Assembly: GCF_001584725.1 (NCBI RefSeq)
Contig: NZ_CP014606.1
Location: forward strand, 124,001-188,000
Source of the DNA: an endosymbiont 'TC1' of Trimyema compressum
GTDB lineage: Bacteria; Bacillota; TC1
Length of the DNA: 64,000 nucleotides
Direction of reading: 5' to 3'
Shown here: positions 23,341 to 48,915 of the stretch, one piece after another
How the letters are laid out: the number at the start of each line of letters is the position of its first letter
Numbering within the stretch: the stretch's first letter is position 1
The notes under the pieces: generated by a model
What the model was told of the DNA's origin: nothing
The model's input: only the letters and a program-made list of their open reading frames with translations
Databases searched by the model: none
Position numbers and translations under genes: made by a program

Positions 23341-24336
23341 ATGAAACAATTACGTATTATTTTTGGAGTGCTATTTTTTTTTCTAATATTATTTTTTCCA
23401 TTAAGTGCTATTTTGGGAAATGATACAGCATTTGTATCTGAAATAATCCAGCCTGATAACCAGATAAGTAAATCAGCATCATTTTTTGATCTTGATATTA
23501 ATTCAGTAAAACAACAAGAGCTTGAAATTTTGCTTACAAATAAAACTAATAAACAGCTAGTGCTTGAGGGAGCGGTAACTAACGCTTGGACAACTATAAA
23601 TGGAGTTATTGATTATTCCTCAACTGAGTATCCTTTGGATTCTACTTTAAAAAATCCATTATCTTCTTTATTAGTATTAAATTCTAAAGAAATAGTTATT
23701 CCACCTATGGAGCAAATTCGAGTTACAGCAACTTTAAATATACCAGACAATATTCATGAAGGAGTAGTTTTAGGTGGAATTCAATTCTGTGAAAAAGGGG
23801 ATTCTTTCAATAATCCAAATGAATCAAGTGTTTATAATAAGTATGCAGTTGTAAAAGGTGTTAAATTAACTAAGGGGGAAATTCCTAACCCAAATATAGA
23901 GATTAGCAATGCTAAAGTATCGCAGTTAAGAAAAATACCTGCAATCACTGTTAATATTAAAAATACTGAGGCCACAATGATTGGGGAAATGAGTTTTAAA
24001 ACAGAAGTTAGAAAAGAAAATTCCCAAGAAATATTACAGTCTGATGAAACAAAACCAGTACAGATGGCTCCAAATTCAAATGTAGATTTGCCTATTTATT
24101 GGAAGGATACCACAATACAACCTGGGAAATATACTGTGCATGCAACTGTTGAAATAGCAGGGAAGACTTGGGATAACAACTTGAATTTTACAGTTGACGA
24201 TAAAACATCTAAAAAAATTGCTAATGCTGAAAAACCAGTAGATAATGTACTCACAATATGTGTAGTCATTATTGTAGTATTGATTCTGCTTAGTAGCATA
24301 TTAGCCTATTTATTAATAAGAAAAAATAAAAAATAA
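23341..24336 (+). CDS. WxL-interacting protein (DUF916-DUF3324)
   Basis: 331 residues: signal peptide (residues 1-25), DUF916 domain (about 30-150; VSEIIQPDNQISKSASFFDL, ending in EGVVLGGIQF), DUF3324 domain (about 160-295; PAITVNIKNTEATMIGEMSF), then a C-terminal membrane helix (LTICVVIIVVLILLSSILAYLLI) and a basic tail RKNKK. This is the standard architecture of the membrane-anchored partner that binds WxL proteins and, in some cases, host or cell-surface ligands. Start ATG 23341 follows AGGAGTG. It is intact and 84 bases downstream of the WxL gene, with a weak inverted repeat between (AAAAGTGACTGTTA / TAACGGTCACTTTTT at about 23279-23313), which may lower downstream expression. Confidence 0.9.
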   Translation: MKQLRIIFGVLFFFLILFFPLSAILGNDTAFVSEIIQPDNQISKSASFFDLDINSVKQQELEILLTNKTNKQLVLEGAVTNAWTTINGVIDYSSTEYPLDSTLKNPLSSLLVLNSKEIVIPPMEQIRVTATLNIPDNIHEGVVLGGIQFCEKGDSFNNPNESSVYNKYAVVKGVKLTKGEIPNPNIEISNAKVSQLRKIPAITVNIKNTEATMIGEMSFKTEVRKENSQEILQSDETKPVQMAPNSNVDLPIYWKDTTIQPGKYTVHATVEIAGKTWDNNLNFTVDDKTSKKIANAEKPVDNVLTICVVIIVVLILLSSILAYLLIRKNKK

Positions 24337-27612: not shown

Positions 27613-29400
27613 TGAAAAAAATAATATAGAAAAATATTATTTATAATATTTATAGTAATTTCCCTTGAAATAGGAATGGGAATGAGTGGGGCAACAAATG
27701 GTGGAATTGGAAAACCAATAAAAGAGAATTTTACTGATATTAATTTGGCTCAAGCAGTTGCTAGTGGAGATGTTAATGCAGTTTTAACAAGCGAAATGGT
27801 AACTAACTGTACTAATATTAAAGCTACAGAAAAAAATATTACTGACTTGTCAGGAATTGGAGTTCTAACTGAATTAGAATATTTGGATTTAGCTAGTAAT
27901 AACATATAAACTATTCCTGCTGAAATTGGTGATTTGAATAACTTATCATATTTGAGTTTTTTCTAATAAATCTATCAGTGCTATTCCATCTGAAATAGGA
28001 AATCTAACGAAGTTAGAAACTTTTAATTTAATTACAAACTCAATTACAAGTTTACCTTCGGAAATAGGAAGCTTAACGATGTTGAATTCACTAAATTTGA
28101 GTCATAATCAACTAACAAAGTTGCCAACAGAAATAGGTTCCTTATTAAATCTATCTTTTATAGATTTAAGCTATAATTTACTTAGTGTTTTGCCAACAGA
28201 AATAGGTAATATGGCTCATTTGACAAATTTACTATTAGAGGATAATAGATTAACAAGTTTACCAGACGAAATATGCAATTTAATAGAATTAAGGAATTTG
28301 GTAATTTATTTTAATCTATTAACAAGTTTACCAAATGAATTTGGAAATTTAAAAAATTTAGTAACTTGTGAGTTGTGGGAAAACTTATTACCAGATAGTT
28401 ACCCTAGTACTTTGAATGCATTGGGTTTCCCTAAGATAGTGTTTACTTATAATCCACAATCACAATTAAGAATAATAGGAGTTGTTTCTCCATTTGAAAT
28501 TACCAAGGAATCTGATTTATCAAAGCTTGATTTATTTTCATTGGTTGAAATAAACCAAGCCTCCTATGGGTCTGTAATTAATTTATCATCAGATTTTAAC
28601 TTAGAATTAGAGTTAGTTAATTATAAGAATATGAATAATAATGTTGTTAATATTAGTGACTATATCCAAAATGGCCTTGTAAAAAAGAGTGGTACAATTT
28701 ATGCTCAAGTACAAATAAAACCAGCTAATAACGGACTGTTTCCTAGCACAAATAATCATTTGGTAACTAATGAAAAAATACAATTAAATTTTAAGAAATC
28801 TTATTCAGTAAATTTCGGTAGTAATGGTGGCGAAGGATTGATGAATTCTCTATCCATTCCAGAAGGAGATATTGCGAAATTACCAATTAATAGCTTCACA
28901 AAGGCTGGTTATACTTTTAATGGGTGGGCAACAATTAAAGATGGTAATGCAGTATATGTTGACCAGGATTCTTATACAATGGGAACAAGCGATGCAACCT
29001 TATGTGCAGTATGGACATCCGCTACATACAGTTACTTTTGATAGTAATGGGGGGGGTAGTGAGACAATGAGTTCGCTGTCAATGCCAGAAGGAGCAACAC
29101 AAAATTGCCGACTAATGAATTTACAAAGGCTGGTCAACAATAAAAACAGGATTAGCAGAATATGTTGATGGTGCTTTATTTACAATGAAAACAGAAGATA
29201 CTAAATTGTATGAAATTTGGGATAATACATTGTTACCAGACCAAGATTCGAATAATAAAATTGGTCAAATTGATGGGAAAGACTTAACAAACAAATTGCC
29301 AAAAACAGGAGAGGGTAGTTATTATTTGTTAGATTTAATGATTTTAAGCATAGGCTTAATTGGCTGCTATTTTTCAATTAAAAAAGAAAAGGAAAAATAA
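27613..29400 (+). pseudogene. second LRR / InlB-repeat / LPKTG surface protein, broken
   Basis: GTG 27613 follows AGGAGG (27601-27606). A signal segment (ILFIIFIVISLEIGMG), LRRs (27840-28380, units such as LPTEIGNMAHLTNLLLEDNRLTS), a linker domain, two InlB B-repeats (28800-29020 and about 29030-29215), and a full sorting signal: LPKTG at 29296-29310, hydrophobic LLDLMILSIGLIGCYFSI and KKEKEK tail. It is a paralogue of the preceding gene with one LRR block. Breaks: near 27630, TAA at 27907, a T run near 27957, 29040 and 29120; the middle (28079-29041) is open. The intact sorting signal shows sortase anchoring was the ancestral state. Confidence 0.82.
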
Positions 29401-29819: not shown

Positions 29820-31547
29820 TTGAAAACATTAATTTTTTCGGAGAAACCAAGTGTTACAAAGGATTTGGTAGAAGCTATTGATCCAACAGCAAGATATCAC
29901 AATGGTTATTATGAGAGTGTTGATTATATTTTCACCAATGCAATTGGCCATTTACTCAGGTTGAAAAACCCTGAGGAAATTAATACAAAATACAAGAATT
30001 GGAATCTTGTTTCTCTACCTATTCAAATACACAATAAAATAATTTCGAATTATACAGTAAATGAAAAGACGAAAAAACAACTTAGTACTGTTGCAGATTT
30101 GTTTAAAAGAAACGACATTAATTCTATTGTAAATGCAACGGATCCTGATAGAGAGGGTGAGTTGATTTTTAGTACTCTTTACTCATATTTAGAATGTACA
30201 AAACCCAGTCTGCGTTTAATTTTAAAAGATATGACCGCTGAAGGTATTAAGGAACAGCTTGCTGTTTTAGAGCCTGGAGAAAAGTATAATGGATTGAAAG
30301 CTTCTGCTTATTCTAGATCTATAAGTGATTAATTTAATTAGTAGGTGTGAATATTACAAGAGCTTTAACAGTGAAATATGGACGTGGTAGTGTATTGTCT
30401 GCAGGGAGAGTACAAACACCAACTCTTAAATTAATATATGATCGAACTAAAGAGAATTTAGCCCACAAAAAATCTATTCACTATGTAATTAAAGCACAGA
30501 TTGAAGATAGTGATATTTTACTGACTTTAGATAATAAAAAGTTTCGGAAAAAAGAAGAAGCCGAAAAGTTAATTGAAAATTTTCCAGATAAGTTACCTAT
30601 AGAAATGAATCGAAGAAAAAAGATTAAAGTTCCACCGCCACTTCCCAACCTACTGGATATTCAAAAGAATGCCAATAATAAATGGGGATATAAAGCGGAG
30701 GAGACTTTGAATACTGTTCAATCTTTATACGAAAAATACAAAGCTGTTTCTTACCCTAGAACTGACTGTAATTTTGTTACTGCAAATACAGCTTTAAAAC
30801 TTGATAAAAAATTAAGTAAGTTCGAAAAATTTTAAAAATATCCTTATATAGATTTTAAAAATCTTAATAATAAGAATATTGGGGAGATAACAGCTCACGA
30901 AGCTATTACGCCAACAGGTGTTATTCCTAACTATAATGTAATGAGTGAAAAAGAAATTAATATTTATACAGAAATTACCAGCATGTTTTTTCAAATTATT
31001 GTGAAAACTATTCTTATAATGACATTATTTATACAGCTAAATTTGAAAAATATCTTTTTAAGACGATTGAGAAAGAGCTATTAAATGAAGGTTATTTGAA
31101 AGTCTATAAAAATGTAAACCATAAATATAAAGCTATTTTTGAATCAGGTCTATATTCAATAAGATATCAAGTGGCTGAAGTGGAAAGCAAATCTAAACCT
31201 TTTTTACTGAAGCAACCCTAATTTCAAAAATGGAAAATATTCATAATAAAGAAAAAGGGGAAATTAAAAAAATCTTAAAAGATATTAAAGGAATTGGGAC
31301 ACCTGCAACAAGAGGCTCTATTATTGAAACTCTTTTTAAGAGGGAATATATACAAAATAAAGGAAAATCAATTGTTACAACAGATAAAGGCAATAAGTTT
31401 ATAGAACTTTTGCTAGCTATAGATTCAAGACTATTGGATGTAAAGTATACGGCAGATTTAGAAACTAGTTTGAAGGAAATGGTTAGTAATCCCGCAGATT
31501 TCAAATCATTTTTAACAGAAGTTAATGCCTTAACGTCAGAATACTAG
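29820..31547 (+). pseudogene. topB: DNA topoisomerase III, frameshifted
   Basis: Starts at TTG 29820 after GAGGAAAG. The product is a type IA topoisomerase: TOPRIM domain with SEKPSVTKDL at residues 6-15 and ATDPDREGELI (metal-binding DxDxxGE-like) near residue 107, then GRGSVLSAGRVQTPTL and the active-site Tyr in AVSYPRTDCNF at about 30745-30778, then HEAITPTG and a C-terminal GIGTPATRGSIIETL. These cytosolic enzymes decatenate DNA. Breaks: near 30330 (SISD then eight extra or altered bases before LVGVN, not a homopolymer), 30835, 30995 and 31205. Without repair, only the first 170 codons would be translated. Confidence 0.88.
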
Positions 31548-36035: not shown

Positions 36036-36971
36036 ATGAGTAGAGTACTAATAACTGGGGGGGCTGGTTTTATTGGATCTAATTTGACAGAGTATTTAAT
36101 TAATCACAATGAAGAAGTCGTTATTATTGATAATTTTACTACAGGGAAAAAGGAAAATATAGAAGCATTTAGAGATAAAATTACAGTATATGAAGGCGAT
36201 ATAAAAGATGAAGCATTAGTTGAAAAGTCCTTACAAGGTGTAGATGCTGTTGTTCATTTAGCTGCCATTCCTTCTGTTATTGAATCTGTAAATAATCCTA
36301 GAAAAGTAAGTGATAACAATATTATGGGAACTGTGGCACTTTTTGATATCATTGCTAAAAAAAGCAATGTTAAAAAAATAGTTCAGGCTTCTTCTTCAGC
36401 AATTTATGGCGATATTAAGGAAATGCCTATTGTTGAGACTGCTGGATACAATCCATTATCTCCTTATGCAATTGATAAAGTTGTGCAGGAACTTTTTGCT
36501 AATTTCTACAGCGAAACCTATGGTATTGATATTATCTCACTAAGATTTTTTAATGCATTTGGACCAAAACAAGATCCGAAATCTGTATATGCAGGCGTTA
36601 TCCCTATTTTTATTAGTAAATTAGTTAATAACGAATCTCCTGTAATTTTTGGGGATGGACTGGCATTGAGAGATTTTATTTTTGTAGGCGATATTGCTCA
36701 GGGAATTTATAAATCATTATTAAGCAAAAATAAAGGTCATAGAGTTTATAATTTAGGAACAGGAGCAGGCACTACAATTAATAAGTTAACTGAGACACTT
36801 ATGGGATTAATGGGTAAAAAAATGCCGCTTATTCATAAAGAAAAGAGGGCGGGAGAGGTAGATAAATCGGTATCTAATATTGATAGAGCAACAACTGAAA
36901 TTGGCTTTAAAAGTCAATTTACTCTCAAAGAAGGTTTAGTGCGACTCTTAGATTTTATGAATATAAAATAG
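36036..36971 (+). CDS. NAD-dependent UDP-sugar 4-epimerase
   Basis: 311 residues, an intact extended SDR: TGGAGFIGS at residues 7-15 binds NAD, ASSSAIYG holds the catalytic Ser, and SPYAIDK the Tyr/Lys pair. The size, the EGDIKD region and the RFFNAFGPKQDP loop fit UDP-glucose/UDP-GlcNAc 4-epimerases of surface polysaccharide loci; GalE, WbpP-type or UDP-glucuronate epimerase roles cannot be separated by eye. It probably supplies UDP-galactose for the mutase downstream. It stands 110 bases ahead of the first glycosyltransferase. Confidence 0.85.
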   Translation: MSRVLITGGAGFIGSNLTEYLINHNEEVVIIDNFTTGKKENIEAFRDKITVYEGDIKDEALVEKSLQGVDAVVHLAAIPSVIESVNNPRKVSDNNIMGTVALFDIIAKKSNVKKIVQASSSAIYGDIKEMPIVETAGYNPLSPYAIDKVVQELFANFYSETYGIDIISLRFFNAFGPKQDPKSVYAGVIPIFISKLVNNESPVIFGDGLALRDFIFVGDIAQGIYKSLLSKNKGHRVYNLGTGAGTTINKLTETLMGLMGKKMPLIHKEKRAGEVDKSVSNIDRATTEIGFKSQFTLKEGLVRLLDFMNIK

Positions 36972-37081: not shown

Positions 37082-38137
37082 GTGAAGAAGTTATCAATTA
37101 TTGTTCCAATTTACAACATGGAAAAATATATTGACAGATGTGTTCAATCTGTTCTTGATGCCAAGTTAAATGACTCTATTGAAATATTGTTAATTAATGA
37201 TGGCTCAAAAGATAAAAGCCAAGAAATTATGGATAGTTACTATAAACAACATCCTGATATTATACGAGTATTTAACAAAGAAAACGGTGGACATGGTTCA
37301 GTAATTAATTTTGGAATAGATAAGTCAGAAGGAAAATATTTAAAAATATTGGACTCTGACGATTATTTTAATACTGAAAATCTAAAAAAACTGATTGCTT
37401 TCTTAGATAAAAATGAAGAGGTTGATTTAATTATTACTTCTTATTACAAAGTTTTTGAAAATAGTTGTTTAAAGCAAAAACTTAATATTAAATCTAATGA
37501 AATAATGCCACTTGAAAGTTTATATAGTATTTTTAGTGGTAATTCAAATAAAGAAAATATTAATTATGTTCCTATGGCTATGGTTACATATAAGACTAAA
37601 GTACTTAAAAACTGTAAAAAAAGATTACTAGAGAAAACATATTATGTAGATACTGAATTTAATGTTTTTTACATTAATGAGGTAAATGATTTTATTTATT
37701 TAGATTTACCTATTTATAATTACTGCATTGGCAGAGCTGATCAGTCAATTTCTTCTCAGAGTTTTGTTAACAATTATAATGACCATTCAAAAGTTGTACA
37801 CTCAATTATAGAGTATTACAATACGCATTTATTTAAAACAAAAATTCATAAATTAGTAACTGAGATAATGATAGTACGACTATTAAATACTCAATATGCA
37901 ATTTATGGCTATCATTTGAAAAAAGGTTATAATAGTCAATTACAAAAAGTCATGTTAGATTTTGATCAGTGGTTAAAACAGGAAAGCCCTTATCTTTATG
38001 ATAAAATGGCTATTCGAAAATACATTAGCTTAGGGAGAAAACATAATTTTAATAAAAGAATTTACAGACCATTTTTCTTTAAGTTGGCTATCGCATGGGA
38101 AATGATGCGAGGGACTTGGAAAAAATACAATATATAG
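37082..38137 (+). CDS. family 2 glycosyltransferase
   Basis: 351 residues, GTG start at 37082 after GGAAGGGGAG. GT-A fold: IVPIYNMEKYIDRCVQSVLDA at the N-terminus, INDGSKDKS, and the metal-binding DSDDYF (DxD) near residue 97. It has no membrane segment and is expected at the cytosolic membrane face, adding a sugar to a lipid-linked chain. The C-terminal half, from YVDTEFNVFYINEV to the GRKHNFNKR stretch, is clearly paralogous to the first 345 residues of the next gene, so the pair arose by duplication. Confidence 0.9.
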   Translation: MKKLSIIVPIYNMEKYIDRCVQSVLDAKLNDSIEILLINDGSKDKSQEIMDSYYKQHPDIIRVFNKENGGHGSVINFGIDKSEGKYLKILDSDDYFNTENLKKLIAFLDKNEEVDLIITSYYKVFENSCLKQKLNIKSNEIMPLESLYSIFSGNSNKENINYVPMAMVTYKTKVLKNCKKRLLEKTYYVDTEFNVFYINEVNDFIYLDLPIYNYCIGRADQSISSQSFVNNYNDHSKVVHSIIEYYNTHLFKTKIHKLVTEIMIVRLLNTQYAIYGYHLKKGYNSQLQKVMLDFDQWLKQESPYLYDKMAIRKYISLGRKHNFNKRIYRPFFFKLAIAWEMMRGTWKKYNI

Positions 38138-38175: not shown

Positions 38176-40413
38176 ATGAAAGTACTCACAGTAGTAGTTC
38201 CTGTTTATAATATGGAAGAATATTTAGGGAGATGCTTAGACAGCATGCTTGATGATAGTATAAAGGATGATTTAGAAATCATTTGTGTTAATGATGGCTC
38301 AAAGGATAATAGTATTAATATTATGGAGAAATATAGTCGAGAGTATCCAGAGACTGTCCGATTTATTGATAAGGAAAATGGGGGACATGGCTCTACTGTA
38401 AATGCAGGTATTGAAGCAGCTAAAGGAGAGTTTTTTAGAGTTGTTGACTCTGATGACTGGCTGAACAAAATTAATTTTATTCAGTTAGTAAAAAATTTAA
38501 AAGACCTTGTAAAAAAAGATGTGGATTTAATTATTTCTGCATATAGTAGGGAAGAGGCCTACAAAGGGTATCAGACTATTATTCACTATAATTTCCCCAA
38601 TCAAGAAATAGTAAATTTTATTTATGGAAATTATTTATTAGATAATTCTACAAAAGCTGATCAAGAAAAATACTATACAATGGCTGCAAGTACTTATCGC
38701 ACACAAATTTTAAAAGATAGTCCTCATCGTTTAAGTGAAAAAAGCCCATATGTAGACATGGAATACAATCTTTTCTTTATTAAGCATGTTAAAAATGTTT
38801 ATTATTTCGATGCACCTATTTATTGTTATTTTATTGGTAGAAAAGACCAATCAGTTGCAAAATCCAGTTTATTAAGAAACTTTTCATTTCATGAGAATGT
38901 ATTAAAAAGAGTTATTAGTTACTACAATGAAAATACTTATGACAATGCTGCTTATAAAAAATATATTAGAAAAACAATTGTTTATATGTTAAATACCCAC
39001 TATATGATTCAAGCTTTTTTTAGAGAGGGTAAAAAACAAAAAGAAGGTAATGCTTTAGCAAGAGTATTTGATGCATATTTAAAGGAAACATCTAAAGATT
39101 TATATGATGCTTTAAACCATCGTGCTTATATTGCGAAAGGCAGAAAACATAACTTTAGTACATCTTCTTTTAATATATTGCAATATGGTTTATGTCGAAG
39201 AAAAGAAATAAAAGCTAAAACATGGGAAAAACCCTTAGATAGACAAGATAAAGTCTATGATGTAATTGTAGGGGGAGCAGGTTATGCTGGCTCAATTATG
39301 GCACGGAAATATGCTGAATTAGGCAAAAAAGTATTGCTTGTTGATCGTAGAAAACATATTGGAGGCAATATGTATGATTATAAAAATGATAGCGGTATAT
39401 TAATCCATAAATATGGACCTCATATTGCATATATGGAAACCGATAAAGCCTATGATTTTTTGTCACAGTTCACTGAATGGAATCAATATGAACATAGAGT
39501 GAACGTAGAAATTCAAGGGAAAGAAGTTCCTTTACCTTTTAACTTAACTGGCATTGATATTATGTTTGACTCAGAAAAAGCAACTAAACTTAAAGATATT
39601 TTAATTGCCCAATATGGTATGTATAGTAAAGTTCCTATTTTAGATATGCTAAACAGTGATAACAAGGATTTAAATGAATTAGCTCAATTTGTTTATGACA
39701 ATATTTTTGTTGATTATACAACAAAAATGTGGGGTCTGGATCCAAAAGAAATATCACCGGCTGTAACAGGCAGAGTCCCTGTTCGTATTAGTTATGATAA
39801 TAGACACTTTACAAATAGAATACAAGTTATGCCTAAACATGGCTATACAAGAATTTTTGAAATTATGTTAAATCATGAAAATATTGACATTTTACTGGGA
39901 GAGGATGTAAAGAAGGTTGTTGTCCTTGATAAAAATAATAAAACGCTTTACTATAACAACCAAGTATTTAATGGCACTTATGTGTATACGGGGGCTTTAG
40001 ATGAGTTTTTAAATTATGAGTTTGGTGAACTTTCATACCGATCATTAGAATTTAAAATTGAGAATCATAATGTTGATAAAATTCAGGAAACCGGCACATT
40101 AAATTGGCCAGATAAACGACCAGAAACAAGGCGTTCTGAAATGAAGACTCTTACATCACAACAAGATATTAAAGGAACAACAGTTACACTAACAGAATAT
40201 CCAGGACCTTGTAATAAATATGCTGAACATTGGAATGAACCTTACTATCCAATTCCAAGTAATGAAAACGAATCAAACTATAAGCTATATTATGATGAAT
40301 TATCTAAAATTAAGAATCTTGTATTAGTAGGACGATTAGCTGAATATAAATACTATAATATGGAAGCAATTATTTTAAAGGCATTAGAATTATTTGAAAG
40401 GGTGGGTAAGTAA
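38176..40413 (+). CDS. fusion of GT2 glycosyltransferase and UDP-galactopyranose mutase
   Basis: 745 residues, uninterrupted. Residues 1-345: GT2 domain with VVPVYNMEEYLGRCLDSML, VNDGSKDNS and VDSDDWL. Residues about 358-745: flavoprotein UDP-galactopyranose mutase (Glf), with the FAD-binding VIVGGAGYAGSIMARKYAELG, HIGGN, KYGPHIAYM and the conserved ARG/Tyr-rich end LVGRLAEYKYYNMEAI. Glf converts UDP-galactopyranose to UDP-galactofuranose. Fusion suggests direct delivery of the unstable furanose donor to a galactofuranosyltransferase. The linker at residues 345-358 (KTWEKPLDRQDK) is hydrophilic. ATG 38176 has AAAGGAATG. Confidence 0.93.
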   Translation: MKVLTVVVPVYNMEEYLGRCLDSMLDDSIKDDLEIICVNDGSKDNSINIMEKYSREYPETVRFIDKENGGHGSTVNAGIEAAKGEFFRVVDSDDWLNKINFIQLVKNLKDLVKKDVDLIISAYSREEAYKGYQTIIHYNFPNQEIVNFIYGNYLLDNSTKADQEKYYTMAASTYRTQILKDSPHRLSEKSPYVDMEYNLFFIKHVKNVYYFDAPIYCYFIGRKDQSVAKSSLLRNFSFHENVLKRVISYYNENTYDNAAYKKYIRKTIVYMLNTHYMIQAFFREGKKQKEGNALARVFDAYLKETSKDLYDALNHRAYIAKGRKHNFSTSSFNILQYGLCRRKEIKAKTWEKPLDRQDKVYDVIVGGAGYAGSIMARKYAELGKKVLLVDRRKHIGGNMYDYKNDSGILIHKYGPHIAYMETDKAYDFLSQFTEWNQYEHRVNVEIQGKEVPLPFNLTGIDIMFDSEKATKLKDILIAQYGMYSKVPILDMLNSDNKDLNELAQFVYDNIFVDYTTKMWGLDPKEISPAVTGRVPVRISYDNRHFTNRIQVMPKHGYTRIFEIMLNHENIDILLGEDVKKVVVLDKNNKTLYYNNQVFNGTYVYTGALDEFLNYEFGELSYRSLEFKIENHNVDKIQETGTLNWPDKRPETRRSEMKTLTSQQDIKGTTVTLTEYPGPCNKYAEHWNEPYYPIPSNENESNYKLYYDELSKIKNLVLVGRLAEYKYYNMEAIILKALELFERVGK

Positions 40414-41670
40414 ATGAAGGGTATTGTTTTTTCTTATTTTTTTCCTCCGTTAAATAGTTCAGAAGGAAATGTAACTTTTAAACTAATTAATGCTTCAAAG
40501 TACGATTATGAAGTTTTTTATCAGAATCAGAGTGATTTATGGAGCTATGGTAAAAATATTTTTTTGAGAAGTGATAGAATTAAAGTTATTCCTAGTAATA
40601 CAAGTGATTTAGAAGGCTTTAGGGATAAAGGCATTGCATTATTCAGTAATGATAAAATGGCAGAATACGGATTCATGATGTCCCGCTCTATGCCTCTTGA
40701 AAGCCATCAAATAGCATTAGCTATTAAAAAAAGAAATTCAAATAAATTTTGGTTGGCAAGTTTTGGAGATCCAATTGCTAATAATCCATATGAAAAGTTC
40801 GCTTATGAATATACGTGTAGGCCGAGTATTAGAAGTTTGAGAGGCATTAAATTAAATATCAAACATCAGCTTATGAAAACGGCATATAAAAAGAAAAACC
40901 AAGGTCATATTATGTTACAAAATGAAATTTTTTCATTAGCTGAAAAACTAATTTTTAATAGTGAGCACCAATGTCGCTATATGTTAGGTGAGCGGTATGA
41001 TGAGTTAATTCATAAAGCTTTGATTTTACCACATCCATATGATTTGAATTTATATAAATCAAGATATGAAGAAATTGTAGGCATACCGGAGAACTCAAAT
41101 TTTCAAGATAGTAGAATTAAAATATTATTTGCAGGACATACAGATGATATCAGAAGTTTGAGATATTTTTTACAAGCTTTAGAAAGCCAAAAAGAGTATT
41201 TTAAAGATAAATTACAATTTACAATTTTAGGGAACTTGCCACAATCTGAAAGAGACTATATTTCTCTTCATGATTTATCGTCTTTGATAGTTTATGGAAA
41301 ACAAGTTAGTTACGAAAAATCATTGCTAGAAATGAGAGATGCTGACTTATTAGTTCATGTGGATGCTGAGTTTCCGCCAGAAGTGCTGCAGGAAAATATT
41401 TTTTTTGCAGCAAAAATTTCTGACTATTTAGGATCGGGGACTAAAATTGTAGGTTTAACGTCAGGAGGTATTTCAAAAAATATTCTAACAGAGACTGGGC
41501 AATATTGCCTAACTAACAATAAAGTAATCATTGCAAATTTCTTGTATGATGTTACTACTGGTAAGGTAGATTTAAGTAAAAATCCTAATCCGCCTGCTAA
41601 ATACAATTCAGTAAATATTGCAAAAATATATGATGATGTGCTAGATAAAGAAATAAAAGGTGAGAGTTAA
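40414..41670 (+). CDS. glycosyltransferase, GT4-like
   Basis: 418 residues, starting immediately after the stop of the fusion gene, so translationally coupled. The N-terminus VFSYFFPPLNSSEGN and the C-terminal Rossmann part (IKILFAGHTDDIRSLRYFLQAL, YGKQVSYEKSLLEMRDADLLVHVD, KISDYLGSGTKIVGL) fit GT-B enzymes of family GT4-like type, although the usual E-x7-E motif is not clear. Likely adds one sugar of the repeat unit at the cytosolic face. Its stop overlaps the permease start (TAATG). Confidence 0.75.
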   Translation: MKGIVFSYFFPPLNSSEGNVTFKLINASKYDYEVFYQNQSDLWSYGKNIFLRSDRIKVIPSNTSDLEGFRDKGIALFSNDKMAEYGFMMSRSMPLESHQIALAIKKRNSNKFWLASFGDPIANNPYEKFAYEYTCRPSIRSLRGIKLNIKHQLMKTAYKKKNQGHIMLQNEIFSLAEKLIFNSEHQCRYMLGERYDELIHKALILPHPYDLNLYKSRYEEIVGIPENSNFQDSRIKILFAGHTDDIRSLRYFLQALESQKEYFKDKLQFTILGNLPQSERDYISLHDLSSLIVYGKQVSYEKSLLEMRDADLLVHVDAEFPPEVLQENIFFAAKISDYLGSGTKIVGLTSGGISKNILTETGQYCLTNNKVIIANFLYDVTTGKVDLSKNPNPPAKYNSVNIAKIYDDVLDKEIKGES

Positions 41671-42473
41671 TGCTTGAAAGATTTAAATTAATTTTTAATT
41701 TATCACGATATGAATTTAAAAAAGAGTTCCTAGGAACGTCACTTGGCTATTTTTGGAATTTACTAAAGCCAACGCTAACAATTTTAATTTATTGGTTTGT
41801 TTTTGGGCATCTAATAAAGCAAGATAGTGCGGATCCTAACATTCCTTTTTTACTTCAACTTATTTCAGCCTTAGTTCCTTGGTTTTTTATTTCTGGAGCT
41901 ATGATGTCAGGCAGTGGCAGTATGCTAAGTAATGTTAATTTAGTAAAAAAAGTGAAATTCAGTCTCTATAATATTCCTTTAATTACTTTAATGGCTAACT
42001 TTTTTAATTTTCTTATTATGTTTGCAATTGTTATTGTAATATCATGTATATTTGGCTTTTTCCCTAATATATATTGGCTACAATTAATTTACTATATGTT
42101 AGCTACCTTGTTATTATTAAATGGCTTTAATTACATATTCGCAACACTTACTACATTACAAATAGATTTTCATCAATTGCTCGGTATTGTGCTCCAATTA
42201 TTAATGTATTTAATGCCTATTCTTTGGGCTATGGACTATGTACTTACTAAAACTAATGGAACATTACTTGCAACTATTTTAAAAATAAATCCATTTTTCT
42301 ATATAATTACAGGATTTAGAAGTACAATATTATATCCTGAGTTTAATATAGTTAATTATGGTTTGAATTCAATAAGCTATGTAGCTTATTTCTGGGTTTT
42401 TGTCATAGTAATTAATTTAATAGGTTTCCTATTATTTAGGAAATATAAAGGGGAGTTTGCAGATTTATTATGA
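41670..42473 (+). CDS. ABC-2 type polysaccharide export permease (TagG/Wzm type)
   Basis: 267 residues with six membrane segments and the family pattern FKKEFLGTSLGYFWNLLKPTLTILIYWFVFG at the N-terminus. This permease exports completed lipid-linked teichoic acid or O-antigen-type polysaccharide across the membrane with the next gene's ATPase. It overlaps the genes on both sides by 1-4 bases, so all three form one operon. It ends in TGA (42471-42473), evidence that UGA is a normal stop in this genome. Confidence 0.92.
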   Translation: MLERFKLIFNLSRYEFKKEFLGTSLGYFWNLLKPTLTILIYWFVFGHLIKQDSADPNIPFLLQLISALVPWFFISGAMMSGSGSMLSNVNLVKKVKFSLYNIPLITLMANFFNFLIMFAIVIVISCIFGFFPNIYWLQLIYYMLATLLLLNGFNYIFATLTTLQIDFHQLLGIVLQLLMYLMPILWAMDYVLTKTNGTLLATILKINPFFYIITGFRSTILYPEFNIVNYGLNSISYVAYFWVFVIVINLIGFLLFRKYKGEFADLL

Positions 42474-43663
42474 TGAATAATGATAAAGTAATAGAAGTAG
42501 TTAACTTAAATAAATCCTATAAGCTTTTTAAGAAAAATATCTATAAGATACTTGATATTTTTGCCTTTGGTAAAAAGCTTTATACACCTCATGACGTTTT
42601 AAAAGATGTTACATTTGATGTCTATAAAGGAGAGGTTCTAGGCATTATTGGAAGCAATGGTGCTGGTAAATCTACTTTACTAAAGCTAATTTCAGGTGTT
42701 TCAACACCAACTAGTGGAAGTATTAAAATTAATGGGAATGTAGTCTCTTTGTTGGAGCTGGGATCCACTTTTAATATGGAAATGACAGGGATTGAGAATT
42801 TAAAGCTTTTCTTTACTATCATGTTAGTTGATAAAGATAAGATGCAACAATATGTTGAAGAAGCTATTAAATTTGCAGATATTGGAGAATATGTTAATCA
42901 TCCAGTAAAGTTCTATTCCAGCGGTATGTTTGCTCGTTTAGCATTTGCTGCGAGTGTCCAAGTGGAACCAGAAATACTTGTTCTTGATGAAGTTCTTTCA
43001 GTCGGGGATATTGATTTTCAATCAAAATCCTTAGAAAAAATTATTGAATTGAAGAATAAGGGGGAAACAATTCTTTTAGTTTCACACTCATTCTCAGCAG
43101 TTAATAGTTTCTGTGATAGAGTAATATGGCTAAAAGATGGTGTTATTCATAAAATGGGTGATCCTAAAATCATTACTCAAGCATATCATTTTAACAGCAT
43201 TGGCTATGAAAATAATAGCAGTGAGCACTTTGCTGTAAAAGAAGATTCTGGTGCAGTTAAATTAAATAATGCTAGAATCAATAGGATAAAATATCAATTT
43301 AATGAAGATTTCCAGTTAGAATTAGATTATAAGGTTGAGAAAAAAATACCAATGGATTTAATAGTTGAAATTTGGAAGTATCAAGCAGAATACCCTAATT
43401 TCTTAAGAGGAGGTGAGCTTTTGATTGGTAAGTATTATGGTTCTAATCATCAATTTGATGCTACTAATAGTGATAGTTTAAAATTTTTCATTGAAAAGTT
43501 AAATTTAGGTGCAGGACAATACTATATTGATATTGCATTTAGTAATACTATTAATTCAAAATTATATCTTCATGTGTTTAATGTAGCTGATTTTGTAGTT
43601 TCCTCAAGAGATAAAATCGACGATGGAATTGTATTAATGGATGCTCATTTTAACAGAGGTTAA
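42470..43663 (+). CDS. ABC transporter ATP-binding protein (TagH/Wzt type)
   Basis: 397 residues. Nucleotide-binding domain at residues 1-245: Walker A GSNGAGKST, signature YSSGMFARLAFA, Walker B ILVLDEVLSVGD and switch His in LLVSHS. The usual long leader before Walker A of the teichoic/O-antigen subgroup is present (KSYKLFKKNIYKILDIFAFG). The C-terminal about 140 residues form a Wzt-type extra domain (HFAVKEDSG... to the end), which in Wzt homologues binds the terminal sugar of the chain. It drives export with the permease. Confidence 0.92.
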   Translation: MMNNDKVIEVVNLNKSYKLFKKNIYKILDIFAFGKKLYTPHDVLKDVTFDVYKGEVLGIIGSNGAGKSTLLKLISGVSTPTSGSIKINGNVVSLLELGSTFNMEMTGIENLKLFFTIMLVDKDKMQQYVEEAIKFADIGEYVNHPVKFYSSGMFARLAFAASVQVEPEILVLDEVLSVGDIDFQSKSLEKIIELKNKGETILLVSHSFSAVNSFCDRVIWLKDGVIHKMGDPKIITQAYHFNSIGYENNSSEHFAVKEDSGAVKLNNARINRIKYQFNEDFQLELDYKVEKKIPMDLIVEIWKYQAEYPNFLRGGELLIGKYYGSNHQFDATNSDSLKFFIEKLNLGAGQYYIDIAFSNTINSKLYLHVFNVADFVVSSRDKIDDGIVLMDAHFNRG

Positions 43664-43667
43664 AAGA

Positions 43668-44675
43668 ATGAATATATTAGTTACAGGGGGAGCCGGTTTT
43701 ATCGGCTCTCATTTTATAAAGGCATTGCTTCGTAATCCGCAAATTAAAAATGTAGTGAATTTAGATTGTTTGCGTTATGGCAATAATTTATTTTCTTTAG
43801 AAACTGTTAAAAGTGATAACCGTTATTCATTTATTGAAGGAAATATTACTAACAAAGAATTAGTTGATGAAATTTTTAAAATTTATAAAATCAATAAAGT
43901 GGCTCATTTTGCTGCTGAATCACATGTAGATAAAAGTTTAGTAGATTTTGAAGGATTCATAAAAACAAATGTTTTGGGAACCCAGGTCCTTCTTGAAAGT
44001 GCAAAAAAAGCTTGGCTAGTGAATAAAGAAGGTGATAGTTGGAGTAGTCTTGGAAATAAGAAGTTTCTGCATATTTCTACAGATGAGGTCTATGGACCAA
44101 CTAATAGCTTTAAAATACTTTTTGATGAAACAGCACCACTAAATCCTTCAAATCCATATGCAACAACAAAGGCTTCGGCTGACTTAGTTGCCTTAACTTA
44201 CAAAAATAACTTTAATTTGCCACTTAATATTACTCGGTCTACTAATAACTATGGAATTTTTCAATTTCCAGATAAACTAATTCCTAAAATGATTATTAAA
44301 GGTCTTAAGGGGGAGTTGTTACCAGTGTATGGTAAAGGACAGGAAGTAAGAGAATGGTTAAGCGTAGAGGATCATGTTAATGTTTTAGTAGAGATTTTAT
44401 TTGATAGTCATAAAGGAGAAATATATAATATAGCCAGTGGCATAAGGAAGAAAAATATTGAAGTTGTTGAATTAATTGTCCGGATTCTAGGATTACCGAA
44501 AAGTAGAATTACCTTTGTTAAGAATCGTTTATTTCATGATAAAGCCTATAGCATTGATGATAGTAAACTTAATAAATTATTTAATTTTGAACCAAATAGG
44601 AGCTTCCAGTTAGAAATGGAAAAAATTATTTCTTGGTATTGTAGGAATGAAAAATGGTGGTCAAAATTTATCTGA
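43668..44675 (+). CDS. rfbB: dTDP-glucose 4,6-dehydratase
   Basis: 335 residues from ATG 43668 (AGAGG five bases upstream). An extended SDR with TGGAGFIGSHF at the N-terminus, FAAESHVDKS, the STDEVYG catalytic Asp-Glu pair, and YATTK with Tyr/Lys. It converts dTDP-glucose to dTDP-4-keto-6-deoxyglucose, the precursor of dTDP-rhamnose and other deoxysugars. The partner genes (rfbA, rfbC, rfbD) are not adjacent, so they lie elsewhere or this feeds another sugar. It ends with TGA and a terminator follows. Confidence 0.9.
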   Translation: MNILVTGGAGFIGSHFIKALLRNPQIKNVVNLDCLRYGNNLFSLETVKSDNRYSFIEGNITNKELVDEIFKIYKINKVAHFAAESHVDKSLVDFEGFIKTNVLGTQVLLESAKKAWLVNKEGDSWSSLGNKKFLHISTDEVYGPTNSFKILFDETAPLNPSNPYATTKASADLVALTYKNNFNLPLNITRSTNNYGIFQFPDKLIPKMIIKGLKGELLPVYGKGQEVREWLSVEDHVNVLVEILFDSHKGEIYNIASGIRKKNIEVVELIVRILGLPKSRITFVKNRLFHDKAYSIDDSKLNKLFNFEPNRSFQLEMEKIISWYCRNEKWWSKFI

Positions 44676-44803: not shown

Positions 44804-45417
44804 ATGGAAAAATATATTCTAGAAACAAATAATCTAACAAAGTCATTTAATAAAGAAATAGCTAAAAATGATTGCTGGTATTTTAGACTCTACAGCCGAT
44901 CAGATCTATTTCCAGGGGAAGGTTTGGGAGCGAAAAGATTTATATAATATTATAGGGAGCACTAATTGAGTCTCCGGCTATTTATGGCAATTTAACTGCC
45001 TATGAAGAATTTAAAAATACACACACTTATACTAGGGTTGAAAGAATCTACTATAATGGATGTTCTTAGTATAGTCGATTAAAAGGAGACTGGAAAGAAA
45101 AAAGCATTCCAGTTTTCAATGGGTATGAAACAGCGATTAGGTATTGCTATTGCATTACTTGGGAATCCAAAACTTCTTATTTTAGATGAACCTATTAATG
45201 GGCTTGATCCTATGGGGATTAAAGATATGAGGGCTTTAATTCGTTCATTTCCTGCAAAAGGTATTACAGTTATATTGCCTAGTCTTCTTCTATCTGAGGT
45301 TGAGCAAGTAGCAGATTATATTGGTATTATTAATTAAGGCGTTCTTGGTTATGAAAGTAAAATAAATACTAATGAAAACTTAGAAGAATTATTCATGAAT
45401 GTTATTCAGAAAACTTA
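44804..45417 (+). pseudogene. bacitracin/lantibiotic-type ABC ATPase, Walker A deleted
   Basis: ATG 44804 follows AAAGGAAGGG. The start MEKYILETNNLTKSFNKE is that of BcrA-type ATPases, but the text passes near 44865 straight to KMIAGILDSTADQIYFQGKVW, skipping about 40 residues that include Walker A. Later parts remain: LIESPAIYGNLTAYE, FQFSMGMKQRLGIAIALLGNPKLLILDEPINGLDP (signature and Walker B) and VILPSLLLSEVEQVADYIGI. In the switch segment L-S-S-H has become L-P-S-L, losing the switch His. These transporters protect against bacitracin or lantibiotics. It is unable to hydrolyse ATP as given. Confidence 0.78.
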
Positions 45418-45606
45418 AAATTTTAAGAGGATTTTTTTCACGTAAAATTTTAATTATTGTTCCTTTATTTATTATTGTTTTTACTTTTTGGCAGCCTTTC
45501 TGGCAAATTTAGAAAACCAAGAGCTTTTAGCAATGATTTTTAATTGGTGGCCATTACTTTTTATGCCATTAGGGACCGCTACACTTTCAATTATGGCAAT
45601 TTATTA
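45396..45606 (+). pseudogene. ABC-2 permease of the bacitracin/lantibiotic type, N-terminal stub
   Basis: ATG 45396 overlaps the ATPase end. It encodes MLFRKLKILRGFFSRKILIIVPLF and one membrane segment, then across an indel NLENQELLAMIFNWWPLLFMPLGTATLSIMAIY, typical of the N-terminal two helices of lantibiotic immunity permeases. At 45606 it stops at a junction with a reverse-strand TetR fragment. Two thirds of the permease is missing. Confidence 0.6.
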
Positions 45607-46897: not shown

Positions 46898-48915
46898 TTA
46901 TGCTGCAGATGATTGTCCTAAAAATTGACTGTTTTATAAATTGTAATAGAAGCCACCTTGGGCTAGTAAAGTTTCATGTGTGCCTTGTTCAATTATTGAA
47001 CCTTTATCCATTACTAAAATTAAATCAGCATTTTTATAGTTGAAAGACGGTGAGCAATTACAAAGCTTGTTCTGTCTTTCATTAATTCTCCCATAGCTTG
47101 TTGGACTTGTTGGATAAGTAGCTCAGTTCTAGTATCAACACTACTAGTAGCTTCATCTAAAATTAATATTTTTTGATTAGCTAGGATGGCACGGGCAATT
47201 GTAATTAACTGTTTTTGACCTTGCGATATATTCGTCGCTTCTTCGTTAATTATTGTCTCATAGCCTTTTGCCAATGTTTTAATAAAATGGTCAGCATATG
47301 CTGCTTTAGCGGCATCAATAACATCATCAACAGTCGCTTCTTTACGACCATAAGCAATATTATCTCTGATTGTTCCATTAAATAGCCAAATGTCTTGTAG
47401 TACCATTCCAAAAAGACTGCGAAGACCACTTCTAGTTAAATCCTTAATGTTTTCACCATCAATAGTAATGGCACCACCATTTAATTCGTAGAAACGCATT
47501 AGGAGATTAACTAATGTTGTTTTACCTGCTCCAGTAGGACCTACAATTGCTACTGTTTGTCTTTCCCTCACATCAATGGATAAATCATTCATTAAGATGT
47601 TATCAGGCTCATAACCAAATTTAATATGATCAAAATGAATATTGCCTTTTAATGTATCTACTGGCAATGGTGTAGTTGTTTCTGGAACTTCTTCTTTTTT
47701 TCATCCAGTAATTCAAATACTCTTTCAGCAGCAGCAGTGGATTGTATAGTGTTAAAGATCTAGCTACTTGGGTAATTGGTTGTGTAAAGGAACGTGAGTA
47801 TTGAATAAAGGGTTGAATATTACCCAATAGTTAGTTGTCCCATACTTGCTAAAATACCACCAACAACACAGACAATAACATAGCCTAGGTTACTTACAAA
47901 GTTTAATAGAGGAATAATAATACTTGAAATAAACTGTGATTTCCAACCTGCTGAGTACAGTCTTTCATTAATATCATCAAACTCTTCAATAGAGCGTTTT
48001 TCTTGTCCGAAGATTTTTACTACTTTTTGGCCAGTATACATTTCTTCAACATGGCCGTTCATAGCCCCCCGATTCTTTTTGGTTAGCAATAAATTGTTTT
48101 TGCGAATGTTTCGCAATTTTTGTTGTAATAAAAGCAGCAAGAGGTAATGTGAGAACTGTTACTAATGTTAGTATAGGACTAATTGTTATCATCATAATCA
48201 CAACACCAACTATAGTAACAATTGAGGTGATAATTTGGGTTAAGCTTTGTTGTAATGTAGTACTGATTGTGTCAATATCATTTATTACTCGGCTTAAAAC
48301 TTCCCCATAGGTATGATTATCAAAGTATTTCATAGGTAATTTATCAAGTTTCTGACTGACATCATTACGCATATTAAAGACAGTTTTCTGAGTAATATTA
48401 GTCATAATGAAACCTTGAATATAGGAGAACAATGCACTTAGTAAATAGAGTCCTAATAGTAATAGGAGAATTTGACCAATAGCGCCAAAATCAATAATTG
48501 GTTTTACAGTTAAGTTGAGATTTTCAATATAATCAAGATAATTTGCTGGAATTTTATCTTTAATTTCAGCGGGCATGTTTTTTAAAACAGAAGCCCCTGT
48601 AGTACCTTCTGACAACTGAATTCCAGGTGGTAGTTCTTTATGCACCTGATTATAAATTGTAATGCCAACAACGCCTTTTGCCAAAACATCAGTAGCATTT
48701 CCTAAAATTTTAGGGCCAACAATGGCAAAGACTGTACTGGCTACAGCAAATAAGAATACGACAACAATATGAAATTTATAGCGTCTTAAATAGCCTGTTA
48801 AACGTTTTAAGGTTTGACCAAAGTTTTTGGCTTTTTCAGCAGGTCTCCCTAAAGAAGATCAAGGAGGTCCGCCTTGAGGAATTTTGCTTTTAGATTTTTC
48901 TTTTACTTCACTCAT
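46898..48915 (-). pseudogene. heterodimeric ABC multidrug exporter, second subunit, broken
   Basis: ATG at 48915 overlaps the stop of the first subunit (ATGA). An N-terminal tail (SKSKIPQGGPP, then a TGA, then SSLGRPAEKAKNF) precedes six membrane helices. The nucleotide-binding domain has Walker [12 protein letters not shown]-loop, signature NISQGQKQL, Walker [13 protein letters not shown] and switch His in VIAHRLST. The LmrCD/YheIH type is expected. Breaks: TGA near 48857, frame shifts near 48050-48060, 47825, 47690 and 47030, and TAA 46933-46935 (in GGFYYNL-stop-NSQF, where Tyr is usual). It pairs with the upstream subunit to export lipophilic compounds. Confidence 0.82.

Follow-up and report, generated by a model that had tools for sequence, protein, structure and literature searches.

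A predicted fusion of a GT2 glycosyltransferase with UDP-galactopyranose mutase in the Trimyema compressum endosymbiont TC1

An intact operon and its surroundings

The window analyzed here (the whole stretch of DNA, 64,000 nucleotides long) comes from the genome of the endosymbiont TC1 of Trimyema compressum. Seven open reading frames (ORFs) lie on the same strand between positions 36036 and 44675, all of them intact and either overlapping or separated by short gaps, and we infer that they form one transcript. One of them (38176-40413, + strand) is a single stop-free open frame of 745 amino acids (aa), whose translation gives a GT2 domain in front of a complete UDP-galactopyranose mutase (UGM) domain. 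The features of the operon are the following.

36036..36971, + strand: GalE-like SDR of 311 aa, UDP-hexose 4-epimerase group, first operon gene (PF01370, 3.4e-60)
37082..38137, + strand: stand-alone GT2 of 351 aa, GGHG subfamily (PF00535, 3.5e-31)
38176..39225, + strand: first half of the fusion (residues 1-350), a GT2 domain with a GT-A fold and additional helices at its C-terminal end (PF00535 at residues 5-147)
39226..39255, + strand: linker of the fusion, approximately residues 351-360 (homology to the paralogue stops at 352, and TIGR00031 begins at 361)
39256..40413, + strand: UDP-galactopyranose mutase domain of the fusion, residues 361-745 plus the stop codon (TIGR00031, PF03275)
40414..41670, + strand: 418-aa protein without a family match, possibly a GT-B glycosyltransferase by eye
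41670..42473, + strand: ABC-2 type polysaccharide export permease, Wzm/TagG-like (PF01061, 8.2e-14)
42470..43663, + strand: TagH/Wzt-like export ATPase (397 aa) whose C-terminal extension weakly resembles Wzt_C (PF00005, 1.7e-24)
43641..44675, + strand: RmlB-like NDP-glucose 4,6-dehydratase, last operon gene (TIGR01181, 366.2 bits versus a cut-off of 365.1)

The GalE-like SDR scored 199.4 bits with TIGR01179 (galE), below the cut-off of 262.3, and its best solved relatives were 6dnt, 6wjb, and the UDP-glucose 4-epimerase 4zrm. For the 418-aa protein, there was no match in Pfam or NCBIfam and no PDB sequence match better than an E value of 0.89; its single-sequence AlphaFold2 model was uninformative (pLDDT 31.6). 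An adjoining TagGH-like transporter had been proposed in the original prediction, and the exporter part of this proposal held, with an ABC-2 permease (PF01061) and an ATPase (PF00005) lying next to each other and both over their cut-offs. The finer assignment did not. The ATPase stayed below the cut-offs of two TagH models (PRK13545, 230.2 bits versus 538, and another with 185.4 versus 320) and of Wzt_C (PF14524, 23.0 bits versus 30.4), and the permease stayed below that of the galactan exporter Wzm (NF050109, 48.5 bits versus 380). By its family matches, the transporter is an exporter of the TagGH/Wzm-Wzt kind, not TagH or Wzt proper.

ORFs of at least 200 aa cover 97.7% of the operon bases versus 25.9% of the left flank and 37.3% of the right flank. 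As a check for assembly noise, ORF statistics were computed on 16 stretches of the same genome (320 kb) and 8 stretches of a genome of the same family (160 kb), and the corresponding coverages were 55.7% and 70.6%. Long unbroken frames in the TC1 genome include rpoB, smc, dnaE, rnr, and relA. Of ten long ORFs that were compared with families, nine gave a match at an E value of ≤1e-60 and the tenth did not; several long frames from a stretch consisting mostly of N were left out. Given that these long essential ORFs are intact, the decay of the flanks and of the genome probably reflects genuine pseudogene formation, not random error, and an intact operon amid such decay suggests that the operon is under selection.

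The genome is rich in broken-gene lesions. Near the operon (genes named by eye), a topoisomerase III-like gene is broken across three frames (29820-31547), an ABC ATPase remnant lies at 44820-45420, and an ABC transporter is found in pieces at 47020-48684. Further upstream, a WxL-interacting protein and a leucine-rich-repeat protein (23341-24336 and 28079-29041) point to a Gram-positive surface. Outside the window, the same genome also carries a phosphoglycerate kinase-triosephosphate isomerase fusion of 643 aa (L088:8539-10467; 876.3 bits versus a cut-off of 883).

Genes for sugar supply and wall attachment are found elsewhere in the genome. GalU and GalE are encoded outside the operon, both over curated cut-offs, which indicates that the genome can make UDP-Gal. 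A second galE-like gene of this genome (L109, L111, and L112) is interrupted by stops and shifts of frame, and the other galE is intact. A TagO/WecA-type primer gene and one LCP ligase gene are also intact, which fits a wall-attached polymer. The three NTP_transferase matches in the genome were GalU, GlmU, and IspD (the latter two by eye), so that RmlA was not seen among them, and the RmlC family (PF00908) had no match in an assembly rated 96.88% complete. The lone RmlB-like dehydratase could act on UDP-glucose, or it could be a leftover.

The two halves of the fusion

Residues 5-147 of the fusion match Glycos_transf_2 at 1.3e-26 (94 bits versus a gathering cut-off of 23.3). Together with a DxD-type motif, in which D91, D93, and D94 were invariant in 12 aligned rows, this places the N-terminal half in the GT2 family. 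The motifs of its subfamily, taken from invariant alignment columns, are ENGGHG, D-x-DD (DSDD in the fusion), YVD, and one of the Y-x-x-I-G type. The gene just before the fusion had been described as a paralogue of the GT2 half, and it proved to be one, aligning to fusion residues 2-352 with 37% identity. In the tree, the two GT2s were sisters (support of 97/95), but on long branches. In the first full-length alignments (A1 and A2), the GT2 rows were misplaced, and these alignments were set aside for conclusions.

An AlphaFold2 model of residues 1-354, built from 8 sequences (pLDDT 81, pTM 0.83), was compared with solved structures by VIA-align 2. The best scores were nearly tied: TarS (Z 24.0, rmsd 3.8, 311 residues), RmlT (Z 23.8, rmsd 3.7, 314 residues), TarP (Z 22.5, rmsd 3.6, 303 residues), and CgT/GalT1 (Z 22.4, rmsd 4.0, 271 residues). 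TarS, TarP, and RmlT are wall teichoic acid glycosyltransferases. The predicted fold of the GT2 half is thus like theirs over ca. 300 residues (Z 22 to 24), although sequence identity is only 13 to 18% and none of the three is fused to a UGM. This match fits a wall glycan, with the acceptor not fixed by the fold. Among the best 50 structure matches of the GT2 half, no characterized or solved galactofuranose (Galf) transferase was found, so that its link to Galf comes from the gene pairing with glf.

With TarS, TarP, and RmlT, all decorators of teichoic acid, as the nearest solved folds and exporter models closest to TagH, the GT2 pair might add Galf as a decoration to a poly(polyol phosphate) resembling teichoic acid instead of building a galactan backbone. 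We hold this to be possible, if somewhat doubtful, since a shared fold does not set the acceptor and a Pfam search of the operon, and of the operon only, found no polymerase family of the TagF/TarF type. Decoration of this kind would be compatible with the mutase part of the reading that we favor below.

The C-terminal half (residues 361-741) scored 389.9 bits with the UGM equivalog model TIGR00031 (cut-off of 303.75), in agreement with its original assignment. Pfam placed NAD_binding_8 at 366-432 and GLF (PF03275) at 510-726 (1.5e-57, 195 bits versus 26.3), so that all Pfam matches of the fusion, Glycos_transf_2 included, were above their gathering scores. The best solved relative was 3hdq_A (residues 356-743, 1.2e-84), which we take to be the UGM of Deinococcus radiodurans. 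The fusion is the only Glf of the genome (a single PF03275 match in 1.62 Mb and 2 contigs).

The UGM half has the full domain length and the expected motifs: GAGYAG (the GxGxxG FAD motif), GPH (the histidine loop), KMWG, TRR, and RVPVR. In an alignment of 75 UGM rows (3 of them repeat copies), all 75 kept the His of the histidine loop, the Trp, and the T-R Arg, and the fusion also retains the last Arg of RxPxR. We take the Trp, the T-R Arg, and the RxPxR Arg to be core active-site residues of UGM, and we assume that the matched positions are His63, Tyr185, Arg174, and Arg280 in Klebsiella numbering. Directly after the histidine loop, which is described as holding the reduced flavin in UGMs generally (PMC3624792), the fusion differs from nearly all of its relatives, with GPHIAYM in place of GPHIFHT (I-A-Y-M for I-F-H-T). 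It differs again in having NRHF in place of N-x-YF, with His for Tyr. These positions are otherwise well kept (I-F-H-T His in 69 of the 75 rows, Thr in 71, and the Tyr in 70). The usual UDP-Galp-specific active site, that is, I-F-H-T plus the Tyr of N-x-YF, was not found in the fusion. In a Campylobacter mutase, substrate choice reportedly depends on the His of I-F-H-T. The closest relative of the UGM half, the mutase of L032, has I-L-V-I for I-F-H-T and, at the Tyr of N-x-YF, also a His. Despite the altered segment, the fusion is by its sequence a member of the UGM family; the changes in I-F-H-T and at the Tyr mean that its substrate may differ from UDP-Galp or that its activity may be low.

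Along these lines, the mutase half might make another furanose donor, for instance, UDP-D-fucofuranose, with the RmlB-like enzyme acting on UDP-glucose, the SDR serving as a 4-reductase, and the mutase following. The altered I-F-H-T and Tyr would suit such a route, as would an RmlB-like gene in an operon whose genome showed neither RmlA nor RmlC, and a UGM homologue that makes CDP-fucofuranose has been described (PMC12369002). We nevertheless consider it unlikely. The mutase passes the TIGR00031 equivalog cut-off, the action of RmlB on UDP-glucose is only putative here, and L032 shares the changes, yet no RmlB-like ORF of at least 150 aa was seen by eye in its 23-kb locus. We find it quite unlikely, too, that the subfamily formed by the fusion and L032 has retooled its flavin-side active site as a whole for a donor different from UDP-Galp, for instance, UDP-D-fucopyranose supplied by the RmlB-like enzyme and the SDR of the operon. 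If this were true, the locus would encode a UDP-linked 6-deoxy-hexofuranose route in which a single chain carries both mutase and transferase.

Rarity and origin of the fusion

UGM-GT2 fusions are rare. In the phylum of TC1, 43 of 398 genomes had PF03275 over the cut-off, and the only frame longer than 512 aa was the present fusion. A search with the Glf half in 394 genomes from the order of the closest relative also gave 43 genomes (E value of ≤1e-70), the longest frame being of 533 aa (L138), with an extension without GT2 similarity and hence not a fusion. Among 395 genomes of another phylum, centered on a Bacteroidales locus, 65 had PF03275 over the cut-off and three frames exceeded 600 aa, one of them a true fusion (L161) and two not. 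The fusion of L161 (1035-3068, 677 aa) has a complete UGM first and then a GT2 of another kind. Across these surveys (43, 43, and 65 Glf genomes), which may overlap and would miss frames cut by contig ends, the present fusion and L161 were the only ones.

In the class of TC1, a Glf match at an E value of ≤1e-60 was found in 1 of 10 genomes, the present one. None of the 861 matching records of a plasmid collection had one place covering at least 80% of the query, and a scan of a viral contig collection gave no relative of the fusion. Several candidates were discarded: L034 and L040 had near-whole-query matches made up of separate or broken genes, the phage-collection records L076-L079 covered at least 80% of the query with two genes each, and the long frames G913 (609 aa), G889 (937 aa), G971 (502 aa), and L067 (512 aa) carried extensions without GT2 similarity. 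In the open-access literature that we searched, at the level of listings and abstracts, a GT2-UGM fusion was not named.

In a Glf tree of 72 sequences (quick method), the fusion domain was sister to L032, from a Ruminococcaceae genome (SH-aLRT of 99), and both fell within a supported Glf clade of 35 rows (99). The L032 mutase is unfused and 52% identical to the UGM half, and it adjoins a GT2 gene that precedes it, so that the order is the same as in the fusion. A same-strand GGHG GT2 adjoined glf in 26 of the 35 clade rows versus 1 of the 37 outside, a proportion biased by the window, L032, and L076-L079, which entered the set because both halves matched. The 26 pairs comprise 25 within 400 bp and L129, where the GT frame as called is too long. 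When only loci fetched by the Glf half were counted, the pair was present in 20 of 28 in-clade rows (this survey gave loci for 30 of its 43 genomes). In the phylum survey with PF03275, none of 30 loci had such a pair within the 0.7- to 1.4-kb flank. The order in the clade is mostly glf first and GT2 second; GT2 comes first in the fusion and L032.

A side feature of the clade is that the last Arg of RxPxR, presumably essential in the Klebsiella UGM, is absent in 25 of its 35 rows (L124, L125, L126, L128, and L134 among them), replaced by Phe (14), Val (5), Leu (4), Ser (1), or Tyr (1). The substrate or mechanism of this clade may therefore differ.

Given the pair throughout the clade, the gene order of L032, and the sister GT2s, the fusion probably arose by joining of a common neighboring gene pair, with duplication of the GT2. 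The L161 fusion, with its reversed order and other kind of GT2, is probably independent.

The uninterrupted 745-residue frame joining a GT2 to a complete Glf, as originally described, was confirmed by translation, by Pfam, and by TIGR00031 over its cut-off. That it might be an artefact, with neighboring genes joined by an indel error or by a lesion that the decaying genome acquired very recently, strikes us as very unlikely. The related state is indeed one of two adjacent genes, there are many broken genes in the genome and window, and at the junction, an out-of-frame ATG (39222) is closely followed by short equal-base runs (39224-39233). However, a scan of the junction (39181-39297) found no frame-0 start codon, so a separate Glf would have none, and frames 1 and 2 are dense with stops there. 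Codon usage favors frame 0 continuously across 39180-39300 (+9.5 bits versus -25.2 and -39.1), and the entire operon and the long essential genes are unbroken. A missed stop from an assembly error, named in the original prediction as something that would refute it, is thus an unlikely cause of the fusion, although a single-base indel error near 39224-39233, hiding a stop and a restart, is formally possible.

A predicted route to a galactofuranose-containing wall glycan

The least probable reading is that the mutase half has lost catalysis or survives as a structural remnant; this would suit the changed active-site residues and the decay of the genome, but the half is of full length, keeps its core residues, passes a curated equivalog cut-off, and lies in an intact operon, and as the sole Glf of the genome, its loss would leave the GT partner without another source of Galf.

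Our preferred reading, which we regard as probable, if with some reserve, is that of a natural GT2-UGM fusion making and using UDP-galactofuranose (UDP-Galf) for an ABC-exported, LCP-attached wall glycan. With reduced FAD, the UGM half would convert UDP-galactopyranose, supplied through GalU and GalE, into UDP-Galf, and the GT2 half, probably with the stand-alone paralogue, would spend it on lengthening or decorating a glycan bound to a lipid carrier. A TagO/WecA-type primer would start this glycan, the adjoining ABC transporter would export it, and the LCP ligase would attach it to the wall, both primer and ligase being encoded elsewhere. As the mutase equilibrium would lie far on the pyranose side, the fusion could hold a scarce furanose donor beside its user (channelling). 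A pyranose-rich equilibrium of 92:8 is reported for CDP-fucose with a UGM homologue (PMC12369002). Bifunctionality is what the domain content of the protein suggests, and both enzyme activities, the channelling, and the polymer together with its export and attachment are likewise predictions from the genes present.

The component parts of this arrangement are all known; the fusion of UGM with a GT2 has been seen twice, in opposite orders. The Klebsiella O2a galactan locus has UGM as a separate gene, dedicated GTs, and a Wzm/Wzt-type exporter. The glf and GGHG GT2 pairs of the clade bring together the same two families side by side, but as separate genes, and L161 has both in one frame, but with UGM in front and a different kind of GT2. 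The pamABCDE galactan locus of Kingella combines a UGM with dedicated GTs, as here, but its mutase, PamB, is a separate gene, whereas in TC1 the mutase is fused to a GT and lies beside a TagH-like exporter (PMC12269835).

If the fusion works as we predict, it would be a ready-made test system for the channelling of scarce UDP-Galf. Its GT2 subfamily, to which we found no structure or paper assigning such a role, would be labelled as a user of UDP-Galf. The changed active site of the fused mutase, together with the Arg lost from most of the paired clade, would open the question of substrate to direct experiment. The same reasoning would make the glf-GT2 pair of many related genomes a likely origin of surface glycans that contain Galf.
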